Part shown: positions 23,550 through 38,823 of the stretch, piece after piece | Layout: each line of letters begins with the position of its first letter | Numbering within the stretch: the stretch's first letter is position 1 | Source of the DNA: Corynebacterium aquatimens | GTDB lineage: Bacteria > Actinomycetota > Actinomycetes > Mycobacteriales > Mycobacteriaceae | Direction: 5' to 3' | DNA length: 64,000 nt | NCBI RefSeq assembly: GCF_030408395.1 | Contig: NZ_CP046980.1 | Location: 434,001-498,000 of the forward strand | Notes under the pieces: model-generated | Databases searched by the model: none | Told to the model about the DNA's origin: nothing | Seen by the model: only the letters and a program-made list of their open reading frames with translations | Made by a program: the position numbers and the translations under genes

Positions 23550-25739
23550 ATGACCGCAGACTTTCCCGCACTCCCGCAGGCCCGCAAGCAACCCATGACG
23601 CGTAGCTTCCACGGCAGAGACTTCATCGACGACTATGAGTGGCTGCGCGACAAGGAAAACCCAGAGACGATCGCGTATCTAGAGGCCGAAAACGCCTACA
23701 CGGCGGCGGCGACAGCGCACTTGGACGGCGTGCGCTCAGATATTTACGGGGAAATCAAAGCCCGCACGAAAGAGACGGATATGTCCGTGCCTGTGCGTCA
23801 AGGCGACTGGTGGTACTACAGCCGCACGGAGGAAGGCAAAAACTACTCCATTTCCTCTCGCGTTCCCGTGGGCGCCGGATCCGACCCGTGGGCACCGCCT
23901 GTCGTTCCGGAAGACGGATCGCCCCTGCCCGATGAGCAAATCCTGCTTGACGTCAACGAACTCGCCGACGGGCATGAGTTCTTCTCCATCGGCGCCTCGT
24001 CCGTCTCCACCTCCGGCCGCCTTCTGGCGTACTCCGTCGACACCGAAGGCGATGAGCGATTCACGCTCTACTTCAAGGATCTTTCCACGGGCACAATGCT
24101 TGACGACGAAATCCCCGGCGTCTTCTACGGCGCCACCTGGGCGGGGGAAGACTACGTGTTCTACACGCGTGTCGACGACGCCTGGCGACCACACCAGATC
24201 TGGCGCCACCGCATCGGCACCGATGCCTCACAGGATGTGCTTGTGTACCAGGAAGACGACGAAAAGTTCGGAGTTGGAATCAACGCTGACCGTTCCGAAC
24301 GCTATCTATACATCCTCTCTTCGTCTTCACTGACCTCCGAGTACCGCGTCACCCCAATGGACAAACCCGAGGCTGAATTCACAATCCTGTGGGAGCGCGA
24401 ACCCGGGGTGGAATACAACGTCGACCTTGCCGTTCTGGGCCGACGCCCAGAACGGCAAGAAGAAGCACCCGGCCAAGAACAGCAAGAAGAAGCACCCGGC
24501 CAAGAACACTGGGTCGTCACACACAATGCCTTCGGGCCAAACTTCGCGATTGGCACCTGCCCAGTCCCGGCCCCAAGAGAGGCCCTTCCGCCCTTGCGTG
24601 AACTGCGTGAGTACGTAGCCCACGATGATGAGCGGCGCATCGAAGGAACCGACTGCTACCAAGACTTCATGGTTGTCGGCTACCGGCGCGGCGGAATCGG
24701 TCGTTTAGCGTTCGCGGACCTCACCGGCGGATCATTCGGGGAGCTCAAAGAACTGGAATTTGATGAAGAGCTCTACACAGCCGGCTTCGGCGGCAACCCC
24801 GAGTGGGACGCACCGGTCGTGCGCGTGGTCTACACATCATTTACCCAACCCGCGCAGGTGTTTGACTTTTCACCCGCTACGAGCGAACTCACCCTGTTGA
24901 AAGAACAAGAAGTTCTCGGCGGATACGATCCAGCGGATTACGTGGCCACCCGCATGTGGGCTACCGCGGAAGATGGGACGCGGGTGCCCATGTCCGTCGT
25001 TAAGCGTGCTGATCTTGATCTTTCCTCGCCGCGACCCACGTTGCTGTACGGCTACGGCTCCTATGAAGCCTCGACCGATCCCGGGTTCTCTGTCGCTCGG
25101 CTGTCGCTGATGGACCGCGGCATGGTGTGGGTGTGTGCCCACGTGCGCGGCGGCGGCGAAATGGGGCGCCTGTGGTACGACAACGGCAAGGGCCTGCACA
25201 AACGCAACACATTCACCGACTTCATCGCGTGCGCTGATGCGCTTTTCGACGCCGGCGTGACCACCCCGGACCAACTCGTCGCCGAGGGAGGATCCGCCGG
25301 CGGCATGCTCATGGGTGCCGTAGCAAACCTGGCGCCGGAAAAGTTCGCGGGTATTCAGGCGATCGTTCCGTTTGTGGATCCGCTGACGTCGATCCTGATG
25401 CCGGAGCTCCCACTCACCGTCGGCGAGTGGGAAGAATGGGGCGACCCCTACCACGACCCAGAGATCTACGACTACATGGCCACCTACGCTCCCTACGAGA
25501 ACATCGAGGCCAAGGACTACCCCAACATTCTGGCCATCACCAGCATCAATGACACCCGCGTTCTCTACGTTGAACCCGCGAAGTGGATCGCGAAACTCCG
25601 CGACACCGCCACCGGCGGCCAGTTCTTGCTCAAGACCGAGATGGCTGCCGGGCACGGCGGTGTCTCCGGACGCTACAAGAAGTGGGAGCAGACCGCGTTC
25701 GAGTACGCCTGGACCCTCGACCAAGCCGGCGCTGTGTAA
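23550..25739 (+). CDS. ptrB: Oligopeptidase B (prolyl oligopeptidase family)
   Basis: Serine peptidase of family S9A cleaving short peptides after basic residues, probably cytoplasmic (no signal peptide). About 729 aa from ATG at 23550, with an ATG at 23544 as alternative. An N-terminal beta-propeller (about 70-400) is followed by the hydrolase domain. The catalytic Ser lies in [12 protein letters not shown]; the late INDTRV and AGHGGVSGR segments supply Asp and His. Odd: residues about 292-320 are a Glu/Gln/Pro-rich insert made of a 9-residue duplication, preceded in DNA by a perfect hairpin. The frame stays open through it. Confidence 0.93.
24426..24459 (+). repeat. Perfect 15-bp inverted repeat inside ptrB
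   Basis: Left arm 24426-24440 (CTTGCCGTTCTGGGC), loop CGAC at 24441-24444, right arm 24445-24459 an exact reverse complement. It lies inside the coding sequence of the propeller domain and touches a 27-bp duplication. Confidence 0.9.
24455..24508 (+). repeat. Exact 27-bp tandem duplication inside ptrB
   Basis: Two identical 27-bp units start at 24455 and 24482 (each begins GCAAGAAGAAGCACCC). They encode a repeated nine-residue block, QEEAPGQEQ then QEEAPGQEH. In frame, so the protein only gains residues. Confidence 0.9.
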
Positions 25740-25911
25740 CACTGCTCCAGCGCTCCGGCCCTGCTCCTCCTTCCGCCTCACCTGCTCTTACCTGCTCTGA
25801 CTCGCTTCACTCGCTCTGACCTGCTCTCGCCCGCTTTTACCTGCTCTCACCCGCTCCCACCCGCGTCCCCACCCCACTTCAACGCGTCCCCACCCCTCTT
25901 CAACGGAGCAG
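25740..25911. repeat. Pyrimidine-rich 10-bp periodic tract after ptrB
   Basis: No gene. From about 25781 units such as CCTGCTCTTA and CCTGCTCTGA follow one another at 10-bp steps with decay (CTCGCTTCAC, CCGCTCCCAC), ending in ACCCC-rich sequence. GCGGGTGAAA and GAGCAGG on the far side of the neighbouring cassette (27290-27360) read as the reverse complement of this composition, so the two outer edges may be related. Confidence 0.55.
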
Positions 25912-26037
25912 TGATCGAGCCGTTTGTTGTAGCGATCGAGCCGTTTGATTTTCGATCGATCCGTTGGCCGCAAAACCCCAGGTCGCGATTTTGCGAATTT
26001 CAACGGCTCGATCGGCGTGCTCTACGGCTCGATCGGC
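25912..26037. repeat. Repeat array A: GATCGAGCCGTTTG motifs around a conserved core
   Basis: Forward motifs at 25913, 25934 and 25953 (the last as GATCGATCCGTTGG). Then the core AAAACCCCAGGTCGCGATTT near 25972-25993, then inverted copies AACGGCTCGATCGG near 26002 and ACGGCTCGATCGG near 26024. Spacing is about 20-22 bp. Forward and inverted halves can pair into one long imperfect hairpin with the core at its tip. It lies downstream of the nuclease-like gene; array B lies upstream of it. Confidence 0.8.
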
Positions 26038-26079
26038 TGACAGCGATCGCGCACGAAGAGGGGATAAGCGCTGGAGCGG

Positions 26080-26949
26080 TCAGAGGGTCCGCCGGGGCGT
26101 AGACGAATAGGCGATCAGAGCCTCTTGAACGATTCGCGGGACGCGGCCATGGATAGCGTCATCCCAGGTCACGCGAATAATCGGAATTCCTTTGTTGTTG
26201 ATGCCGATTTGGCGTGACCTTTCGTCGAGAAGCACTTGCGTTGGGTCGCCGTACTTGCCGGAGATTTTCTCCTCTCCGTCGGCCTCGAGACCGAGAAAGT
26301 TATTAATCATGAAGTCGATCCACGCAGTACGAACGCGGCCCTGCCCGTCGATGTAAGTGACCTTCACTTGGGCTTCGATTGAGTGCACTTCCGGGATATC
26401 GGCCTGGATGATCTGGTCTCTGACGATGGTTTCAAGAGGGCTTTGAGAGGTCTCAACGGAATAATGGATCAACCTGCGGAAATCCCGGATTCCATTGGCG
26501 CTGGGGACGTCGTCGAGTTGCTCGAGCAGGTACTGCGTAGTCAACTGCTGCCACTTGAATCGCGCAGATTCTAAGGTGACCAAGGCTGCAAGGCGGCCAT
26601 AGTACCGGTAAGTATCGAGGAGCATTTGAGTTCCGTCCACGTGCGGGATCCCGTGACTTGTTTGAACGCGGTCCTCACGGAAACGCCCGCTTCTATAGAC
26701 TGCCCCGTGCTTATTCTGCTTGCGACTACCAGCGTTTGTGCCGCTTCTGCGCTTGAGATCGACCTGTCTCACCCACTCGTGAGTCGCTAGATCCATAAGC
26801 ACAGCCGCCGCCGGGCCAGTGACAATGCAGTCTTTTGTCCGCCCGTGCACGCGCTTGATTAATTCGATTTCCCCCTGCCGGTCCATGTCTTTAATTTTGA
26901 CCTGGATCTTTGGTGTACGCACGCGAATTTGGCACACTTCAGTGTGCAT
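26080..26949 (-). CDS. Putative PD-(D/E)XK-type endonuclease-fold protein (AbiEi/DUF559-like)
   Basis: 289 aa from ATG at 26949; the frame is open to 27174, but that extension only translates repeat array B. The middle (about 30-180) resembles the N-terminal part of actinobacterial AbiEi-like regulators. The C-terminus has the pattern SPLETIVRD ... WIDFMINNFLGLEADGEEK ... ERSRQIGINNKGIPIIRVTWDD, as in very-short-patch-repair/DUF559-like domains. A candidate metal site is Asp in WIDF with E-x-D-G-x-x-K. Codon choice looks less GC-biased than in its neighbours. It is bracketed by repeat arrays A and B, within an accessory insertion between ptrB and the DUF2334 gene. Function not known. Confidence 0.6.
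   Translation of the reverse strand: MHTEVCQIRVRTPKIQVKIKDMDRQGEIELIKRVHGRTKDCIVTGPAAAVLMDLATHEWVRQVDLKRRSGTNAGSRKQNKHGAVYRSGRFREDRVQTSHGIPHVDGTQMLLDTYRYYGRLAALVTLESARFKWQQLTTQYLLEQLDDVPSANGIRDFRRLIHYSVETSQSPLETIVRDQIIQADIPEVHSIEAQVKVTYIDGQGRVRTAWIDFMINNFLGLEADGEEKISGKYGDPTQVLLDERSRQIGINNKGIPIIRVTWDDAIHGRVPRIVQEALIAYSSTPRRTL
26932..26947 (-). promoter_or_regulatory. Hairpin at the start codon of the nuclease-like gene
   Basis: GCACAC-ttca-GTGTGC, a perfect 6-bp inverted repeat covering the third base of the proposed ATG and the following codons. In mRNA it could hide the start. If the real start lies elsewhere it would be an operator instead. Confidence 0.4.
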
Positions 26950-27033
26950 TTTGCGGTGGATTTCTTGGCGGAATAGTGGTAGCGGGGCGTTGCTTATTCG
27001 GTGGAAGCTCTTTTCGCGTTTTTCGTGGTCTGG

Positions 27034-27400
27034 GCGAGCCGTTTGCGTAGGGTGATCGAGCCGTTTGTGTGGGGTGATCGAGCCGTTTGATTTTTGATCG
27101 ATCCGTTTGCGTGCGGTGATCCAGCCGTTTGTTGCAGTGATCGATCCGTTTGATTTTTGATCGATCCGTTGCACGTAAAACCCCAGGTCGCGATTTTGAG
27201 AATTCCAACGGATCGATCGGTGTACTCAACGGCTCGATCGGGCGGGTTAAACGGCTCGATCGGTCGGGTGAAACGGCTCGATCGGGCAGGCGGGTGAAAC
27301 AGGCGGGTGGGTGAAACGGCTCGATCGGGCAGGAGGGAAACGGAGCAGGCGGGTGAAACGGCTCGACTGGTGGGCGAGGGGAATGGATCGGGCGGGCGGG
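27034..27400. repeat. Repeat array B: larger copy of the GATCGAGCCGTTTG array
   Basis: About seven forward motifs (27035 partial, then 27054, 27076, 27097, 27118, 27139, 27159) sit 20-22 bp apart, in variants GATCGAGCCGTTTG, GATCGATCCGTTTG and GATCCAGCCGTTTG. Then comes the core near 27177-27198, then inverted motifs AACGGATCGATCGG and AACGGCTCGATCGG near 27208, 27229, 27250, 27272, 27315 and 27358 with GGCGGGTGAAA spacers. Beyond it to 27461 I see only a purine-rich stretch and the DUF2334 promoter. Confidence 0.85.
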
Positions 27401-27461
27401 AAACAACTTGCAAGGGCTGAAAGCGGGTGGAGGCCAGCGCGGTGTGGGATAATAGGATCTC

Positions 27462-28136
27462 ATGTCTGGTTATCTGCTCGTTTCCGTGTCGTCGATCTTC
27501 GATGACACGCGCAAGGATGTGCAGAAGCTGGTGGCGGACTTGGACCGGGAGGACATCCCTGTTTCGTTGCTTGTGGCGCCTCACATTGATAAGAAGTGGC
27601 ACTTGGCCAAGGACGCCAAAACTCGCAACTGGCTGCATGAACAGATGGCTGCGGGTAAGGGTTTGATCCTTAATGGCTTTGACCAGCCGGTTCAGGGAAA
27701 CCGCGCTGAGTTTGCAACGTTGGAGGAGCACGAGGCGAAACTTCGGCTCAAGGGGGCAACCCGGCAGATGGAGAAGCTGGGGTTTGAGTTGGATACGTTC
27801 GCGCCGCCGCGGTGGCGGATGTCAGAAGGAACGCTTAGCGCTCTTAATAAGTTTGATTTTCGCCTCGCTGCATCGACGAAGGGCATTCATTTCCTGCGCA
27901 CGGGCGAGATCATGTACTCCCGCAACCTGTCGGTCGGTGAGGGTTTCGGTGCCGCTGGCTGGTGGCGTCGGAACATCATCAACGCAGCGGTGCGCAATGC
28001 CCGCAGAGGAAATACGGTGCGTTTGTCCGTCTCGGGACGCAATTTGGGCACGAAAAAGGTGCGTACAGATTTCATAGAGGCAGCGCTGCAAGCTGCCGCG
28101 GAAGGGTTGAGTCCCGCGCACTACAGGGATCTCTAA
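27462..28136 (+). CDS. DUF2334 protein (polysaccharide-deacetylase-like fold)
   Basis: 224 aa from ATG at 27462 with AGGA just upstream. N-terminal 'LLVSVSSIFDDTRKDVQKLVADLDREDIPVSLLVAPHI' followed by 'LILNGFDQP' follows the DUF2334 pattern. This family is related to NodB-type deacetylases and has the first conserved acidic residues in the SIFDD region. No signal peptide, so probably cytoplasmic. Corynebacteria keep such a gene near purSQL. Substrate unknown. Confidence 0.8.
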   Translation: MSGYLLVSVSSIFDDTRKDVQKLVADLDREDIPVSLLVAPHIDKKWHLAKDAKTRNWLHEQMAAGKGLILNGFDQPVQGNRAEFATLEEHEAKLRLKGATRQMEKLGFELDTFAPPRWRMSEGTLSALNKFDFRLAASTKGIHFLRTGEIMYSRNLSVGEGFGAAGWWRRNIINAAVRNARRGNTVRLSVSGRNLGTKKVRTDFIEAALQAAAEGLSPAHYRDL

Positions 28137-38452: not shown

Positions 38453-38823
38453 GAGCCCACCCGGTCCGCCCTGGCCGGCCCACTCGGCCCGGCCCGCCCC
38501 GGCGTCCTGACGATGGTGACACTTTGACACCCCAGGTCAAATCGCGACCTGGGGTTTTGCGCTGAATCGCCGGAGGAGGTGTCAGAATCGTCAGGATCGA
38601 CCCCTCGCCGCCATATCCAGGCGACGAGAAGCCCTCGACGGCGGGAAACCCCGGCGTCCTGACGATGCTGACACTTCGGCACCCTAGATCGAATCGCGAA
38701 CTGGGGTTTTGGGCTGAATCGCCGGGGGAGGTGTCAGAATCGTCAGGATCGACCCCTCGCCGCAAAGTCACTGCGGCGAGAAACCCGAGCGGCTCGACGC
38801 TGCAGCGGGGACTAAATAGGGGC
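38453..38823. repeat. Gene-free region with two copies of a 115-bp palindromic element
   Basis: No gene. Copies at 38497-38611 and 38649-38763 are exactly 152 bp apart, without gaps and with about nine mismatches. In each, the ends pair (TCCTGACGATnnTGACAC with GTGTCAgaATCGTCAGGA). In copy 1 an inner palindrome, CCCCAGGTC-n7-GACCTGGGG, forms a second stem; in copy 2 this inner stem is degraded. The inner part carries the sequence AATCGCGACCTGGGGTTTTG, also the core of arrays A and B. The rest is GC-rich without clear features. Confidence 0.88.

Follow-up and report, generated by a model that had tools for sequence, protein, structure and literature searches.

A nuclease gene and its mirrored repeats in Corynebacterium aquatimens: a probable REPtron-like partnership built on an unrelated enzyme

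Introduction

What connects a nuclease-type gene with the mirrored repeat arrays that enclose it? The question is raised by a unit of Corynebacterium aquatimens located at 25740..27461 of a 64,000-nucleotide stretch of DNA (the window; positions 434001-498000 of a single 2.52-Mb contig, window positions being used below unless genome coordinates are stated). The first-pass annotation of the window described a gene for a 289-residue protein between two arrays, put forward a mobile or defence-like unit as a hypothesis, and recognised no known system with this layout; we have likewise recognised none. Here, we provide evidence that such genes go together with their own repeat families, and argue that the unit probably represents a REPtron-like pairing of gene and repeats that rests on an unrelated nuclease.

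Results

With up to two mismatches allowed, the 14-mer GATCGAKCCGTTTG had 18 matches in the window against 1.30 expected (the largest count in 100 shuffles was 4), and 16 of the 18 fell within the two arrays, so that the mirrored bracketing of the gene described at first holds. Array A (25913..26036) consists of three forward copies of GATCGA(G/T)CCGTTTG, the core AAAACCCCAGGTCG (25972..25985, plus strand) and two inverted copies, the second bearing three mismatches; array B (27032..27400) has seven forward copies, the same core (27177..27190, plus strand) and about six inverted copies, five of them within two mismatches and the sixth, by reading, degenerate. These copy numbers and the spacing, for the most part 20-22 bp but doubled at two steps within the right half of B, agree with the earlier count. 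The arrays, both assigned to repeat family F1, are 88% identical across 129 bp, core included. As single strands they fold much better than dinucleotide shuffles, with z -4.87 for array A (none of 200 shuffles folded equally well) and z -5.38 for array B (none of 100). The nuclease gene occupies 26080..26949 on the minus strand; a longer GTG open reading frame (ORF; 26080-27174), which extends into array B, was not adopted as its start.

The model of the 289-residue protein combines an AbiEi-like domain (about residues 29-165) with a Vsr/I-Bth0305I-like PD-(D/E)XK domain (about residues 170-283), and the two folds occupy residues 29-283. Its N-terminal fold resembles AbiEi well and Rv2827c weakly; Foldseek matches the model to 3r3p (E 0.037, prob 1.00). 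An alignment of 36 sequences revealed a D...ExDG signature, with D212, E222, D224, G225, R246 and R259 invariant and no invariant or near-invariant histidine. As modelled, the catalytic domain is a Vsr-like PD-(D/E)XK fold with an ExDG motif, which bears out the PD-(D/E)XK/DUF559 resemblance guessed from the C-terminus; yet a Pfam search of the protein gave no family above the cut-off, DUF559 included. Its paralogues 2416807, 2188438 and 2048233 exceed the Pfam DUF559 cut-off. A homologue, often distant, was found in 94 of 151 genomes of the same genus.

The gene set analysed below is the union of searches with the window protein, a homologue and Pfam DUF559. In the source genome it comprises seven nuclease-type genes, one of which (2188438) was found via DUF559 alone. 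Mirrored repeats adjoin all seven, on both sides in five, and the arm sequence differs from gene to gene. Both sides are occupied at the window gene (F1), 576340 (F5), 2188438 (F4), 2416807 (F2) and 2396315 (arms GTATACTTCGAT), and the 3' side at 2275226 (F6) and 2048233 (a seventh family, AAATGCTCGT). When the 5' flanks were matched against the 3' flanks, the best scores of the five bracketed genes were 84, 29, 37, 25 and 15, and those of the other two 10 and 9; among the controls, 47 of 49 loci scored at most 14, the two exceptions being overlapping flanks at contig-truncated loci (p 0.0086 with both artefact controls included).

A similar picture was obtained for the homologue loci, of which 65 were entered and nine without a gene match dropped. 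Ten of the first 20 homologue loci (9 of 19 without the window locus) have a near-canonical core next to the gene, against one match in 20 shuffled loci; a looser count, with the core within 600 bp, gives 17 of 56, some with weak arms. A strict-core scan for inverted repeats missed palindromic families and was replaced by a core-free scan of long-gap inverted repeats, in which 31 close homologues exceeded both 29 control loci at DUF2334 genes (p 2.5e-8) and shuffles (p 4.4e-10); the contig-truncated loci L156 and L164 were kept among the 29 controls of this test and of the TTATCCACA test below. In other genera of the family, a few loci (L234, L239) are flanked on either side by mirrored repeats that lack this core, at scores of 11-15 where controls reach 12. 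At the level of sequence, both the gene-repeat association and its specificity are well supported, and the unit whose gene is linked to its arrays, as proposed initially, stands in that each gene has its own arm sequence.

The arrays extend beyond the window: a search of the genome found DNA like array A at six further loci (near 79, 316, 1146, 1593, 2150 and 2282 kb), and single motif matches lie at three more. Unlike arm families have the core (A)AAACCCCAGGTCG in common. The core pattern AAACCCN{1,2}AGGTC has 30 matches in the source genome against 4 for the reversed pattern; by reading, 29 of the 30 are flanked by mirrored arms of six families (one assigned weakly), and the match at 2314093 is without arms. 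The arms are GATCGAGCCGTTTG in F1, TTGAGTGG-CCACTCA in F2, CTGACGAT-TGACAC with variants in F3, CGCGAAATT in F4, GTAGATCCGT in F5 and GTCGAGCCGT in F6, and copies outside the own gene's locus were found for F1, F2, F4, F5, F6 and F7. The earlier concern that such arrays might be widespread without a link to the gene family proved half right: many copies do lie away from any nuclease gene found, yet gene family and arrays are strongly linked, every gene having an arm sequence of its own.

Within the genus, at least one core match occurs in 85 of 151 genomes, chance single hits included, so that only high-copy genomes with zero control hits serve as evidence (G107 with 50 cores, G020 with 40, G155 with 27 and G021 with 24); the arms in such genomes differ again from the source-genome families. 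One core with many arm families points to a design in which a constant core stands between variable mirrored arms. No replication-strand bias of the core was seen by eye. The Rfam matches in the window were two tRNAs only, and the reading of the core as a known RNA was rejected. Viral contigs gave no match to the core 22-mer; the 18-base core pattern occurs in two of them, without visible arms of the families described here. A search for named relatives returned two exact matches, in one Streptomyces and one Clostridia record.

Further elements were noted along the way. Two F3 elements with arms CTGACGATnnTGACA lie at 38507..38746 of the window (genome about 472507-472746), one with the canonical core; in the source genome F3 is an orphan family without an assigned nuclease gene. 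G020 and G107 (L076-L105, L202) carry tandem arrays with a period of about 71-85 bp, the unit being one core plus a palindrome, and in G020 a large array lies directly 5' of a DUF559 gene (about 1099594-1100527). In the intergenic region downstream of lpd, elements of different families occur in several species (L130, L265, L266, L271, L272), apparently at a hotspot; those of L130 lie at 259639 and 259823-259952. At L134, an apparent transposase gene (394536-395750, by ORF reading) lies near the elements 396037 and 396161, one F5 and one F3.

The arms were found to track their gene. The arms differ among nine related upstream elements, each from a different species (seven of the elements at one locus, as judged by the following gene), examples being ATCTGCTAG, ATCGTCTAG and TCGTATAG. 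Changes in the four arm copies of an element are largely concerted: 95.7% of the cells are paired, with 21 double-sided changes, and the covariation is 0.387 against 0.143 in shuffles and at most 0.059 when slid. The similarity of the arms was correlated with protein identity across 22 genes (Mantel rho 0.41, p 0.0002), and for pairs under 60% protein identity rho is 0.22 (p 0.0012, without permutation). Among the five source-genome genes in this test, the most similar protein pair (57%) has the most similar arms. Shared descent contributes to the correlation. A homologue with GTTAGTCCCGT arms is present in five genomes, three of which hold copies elsewhere (four in number, the core of one being degenerate); a search of the remaining 15 genomes gave matches to these arms in two only, apparently inside coding sequence. 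Matches to GTTAGTCCCGTYCG in G020 and G021 were dropped as elements, both looking like coding sequence.

As to placement, based on gene calls from our own codon-usage script, 34 of 35 source-genome elements are intergenic, the exception lying inside a doubtful ORF. Convergent gene pairs flank 17 of the 35, against 6 of 30 window junctions longer than 60 bp (Fisher p 0.015), and divergent pairs flank eight. Intergenic, convergent-biased placement and stable hairpins would also be expected of unrelated short non-autonomous elements, such as terminators, hairpins or miniature inverted-repeat transposable elements of some transposon, that merely tend to adjoin these genes. Against this stand the own arms of every source-genome gene, the tracking of protein similarity by the arms and the same arms on both sides of five of the seven genes, which make such a coincidence hard to credit.

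Since AbiEi and Rv2827c bind inverted repeats at their own promoters, the main rival explanation is an operator role, in which an AbiEi-like autorepressor would bind inverted repeats at its own promoter and the dispersed copies would be its regulon or decoys. Autoregulation through cognate inverted repeats is described for both proteins in the part of PMC7319586 available to us. In addition, many homologues carry an element about 106-242 bp upstream of the aligned start. Moreover, 20 of 56 nuclease loci (8 of 31 close homologues and 12 of 25 distant paralogues; e.g., L119, L115, L123 and L186) have a perfect TTATCCACA, which we take to be the DnaA-box consensus, on either strand in the 330 bp upstream of the gene. 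The two control sets, of 29 and 20 loci, have none, which gives these promoters the appearance of being regulated; the window gene itself has no such site. Such sites suggest replication-linked control of AbiEi-DUF559-type genes.

However, some elements flank the gene on its 3' side or on both sides, convergent pairs outnumber divergent ones around the source-genome elements, and an operator needs neither tandem expansion nor a constant core. The AbiEi N-terminal part, which holds the DNA-binding domain according to the same part of PMC7319586, lies outside the aligned region: residue 29 of the model aligns to residue 57 of 6y8q, the aligned AbiEi part being residues 57-195 of that structure, and model residues 1-16 have a predicted local distance difference test score (pLDDT) under 50, which leaves, in the window protein, no room for that domain. 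The 3' elements, the convergent placement and the tandem growth speak against an operator as the whole story, and we consider this explanation unlikely.

The whole unit lies between ptrB, which ends at 25739, and a DUF2334 gene, which starts at 27462 (ptrB, like some other gene names, was read from translations). The expectation that relatives would be found without the unit was confirmed at the DUF2334-gene loci of 29 relatives, which scored best among the 104 genomes (of 151) that gave a match: neither the window nuclease nor the arrays stand beside the DUF2334 gene in any of them. In 18 of these loci ptrB lies 27-183 bp upstream of the DUF2334 gene; in two, L149 (G158) and L153 (G107), the gap is 1.06-1.23 kb and contains other small ORFs; and in nine there is no ptrB within 1.5 kb. 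The lpd locus was rejected as a clean empty site, the next gene being unconserved.

A bracketed gene, relatives without the unit and a catalytic domain close to the homing endonuclease I-Bth0305I are also features of a homing-type selfish nuclease, which would cut unit-less sites and let repair copy the bracketed gene into them, with the repeats as its homing footprint. This origin seems improbable in view of the one gene per arm family found in the source genome and of the gene-less repeats, which outnumber gene-bearing copies; besides, the seven homologues at one locus in seven species have different arms, thus suggesting vertical descent.

The defence-like character proposed at first retains the AbiEi likeness in its favour and has gained no other positive evidence. 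A nuclease that is restrained by, or senses, the repeats in defence or abortive infection would account for the nuclease domain and for the AbiEi-like domain, which in paralogue L129 and in L248 gave padloc AbiEi matches (E 2.2e-11 and E 4e-5), but the window protein matches no padloc model and, at E 1e-5, nothing in 72,556 plasmid and 50,697 phage records. Neither of the window neighbours, ptrB and the DUF2334 gene, was recognised as a partner toxin gene (no dedicated DUF1814-model scan was made), and multi-copy intergenic repeats would stay unexplained, which leaves a defence role with very little probability.

Discussion

Taken together, the results are best read as a REPtron-like partnership of gene and repeats in which the enzyme is an unrelated nuclease, an explanation that we hold to be probable. 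The arrays would make up one family, F1, within a large collection of short elements that lie between genes and consist of an arm, a conserved core and the inverted arm, often with several such units. Each repeat family would belong to one AbiEi-like and PD-(D/E)XK nuclease, whose gene lies beside or between copies of its own element, further copies of the family sitting elsewhere without a gene. For this partnership we infer binding, cleavage and nuclease-driven amplification or movement: the protein would read its cognate arms, perhaps via the AbiEi-like domain and perhaps as folded single strands, the conserved nuclease domain would nick or cut at or near the conserved core, and repair would then multiply the units locally and rarely seed new sites.

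Several observations weigh against such a partnership. The model has no Foldseek match at E 0.001 or better, and gene 2188438 matches DUF559 and no AbiEi model. In the inverted-repeat test, five of the 31 close loci score at most 9, inside the control range, and the 25 distant paralogues are only weakly above controls (p 0.037); by reading, L111, L117, L165 and L166 have no recognisable core. F3 and the elements of G015 are without an assigned nuclease gene, a homologue search of G015 having found none, and the arms of gene 2396315 were seen beside that gene only (in the source-genome stretches scanned, not the whole genome). The arms for the Mantel test were chosen by eye, and at the relatives' loci the intergenic DNA is too diverged to place insertion ends or target duplications. 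Furthermore, the sites are stable: in a comparison of a 298-kb stretch of G021 and 300 kb of G020, from two close species whose best-aligned flanks have for the most part 84-94% identity, six of seven G020 element sites were occupied in both, thus indicating that new sites arise rarely. The seventh element, 1119653, was not found in G021 and is uninformative because gene content differs there. The mobility proposed in the first-pass annotation therefore comes down to at most slow or past movement. At each of the six common sites the array is longer in G020, by 84-710 bp, so that the activity to be seen is that units are gained or lost locally.

A more far-reaching version of the partnership can be envisaged, though we lean against it: a new class of nuclease-governed repeat populations, in which a sequence-specific AbiEi-Vsr nickase would recognise its own mirrored repeat, which at replication forks is probably extruded or single-stranded, act at the common core and amplify the units, its expression being tied to replication via DnaA boxes in many members. 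If so, the protein-arm pairs across the genus would form a naturally diversified recognition code. A second enzyme class with its own repeats would give AbiEi-DUF559 proteins a candidate function, and supply many naturally matched protein-site pairs for studying how specificity changes. No description of AbiEi-DUF559-linked repeats or of these repeat families was found among the papers listed from open-licence PMC text, and a literature search by the core string gave nothing related among the matches listed, as judged by title; in the portion of PMC2267715 at hand, Corynebacterium diphtheriae is named once, in a table of stem-loop clusters.

Comparison with known systems

The system would be categorically new by homology, and its layout appears analogous to that of REPtrons. 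With AbiE type IV toxin-antitoxin systems it shares, as modelled, the antitoxin-domain fold of AbiEi; it differs from AbiEi and Rv2827c in the absence of the AbiEi N-terminal part from the alignment, in the fused nuclease domain and in the dispersed repeats, and from AbiE in having no recognised partner toxin gene (by inspection, not by a dedicated scan). With Vsr/DUF559 proteins and I-Bth0305I it has in common the catalytic fold and the D...ExDG residues. Homing endonucleases sit in introns or genes, whereas the elements described here are intergenic. For the Vsr/DUF559 protein VsrA of Caulobacter, the accessible part of PMC12907096 deals with a methyltransferase and with mismatch repair, and describes no linked repeats.

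The closest parallel is offered by the REPtron, in which a TnpAREP/RAYT gene goes with repetitive extragenic palindromic repeats (REP/REPIN/BIME). As far as the available parts of PMC8266576 and PMC3116915 describe them, REPtrons have one gene per repeat family, placed beside its own repeats; the repeats are mostly dispersed, intergenic and in inverted pairs, often tandem; and gene and repeat co-evolve with little gene mobility. Similarly, cognate repeats stand beside the gene in 7 of 7 source-genome genes, with homologues above controls, and the source-genome repeats are dispersed, intergenic (34 of 35) and mirrored, with one gene per family. In contrast to the HuH (Y1) transposase with its His-x-His motif and Tyr, the protein here is AbiEi-like with a PD-(D/E)XK domain. 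There is no general GTAG tag, since among the source-genome arm motifs read only that of F5 (TGTAGATCCG) contains GTAG; instead, a 13-14 bp core is common to many otherwise different repeat families. As enzyme class and repeat tag differ, the system would work like a REPtron without being one. To our knowledge, HuH-type RAYT enzymes are the one known case of a chromosomal gene paired with its own dispersed palindromic repeats. The REPtron layout in a second enzyme class, unrelated to the first, would mean that partnerships of this kind have more than one origin.
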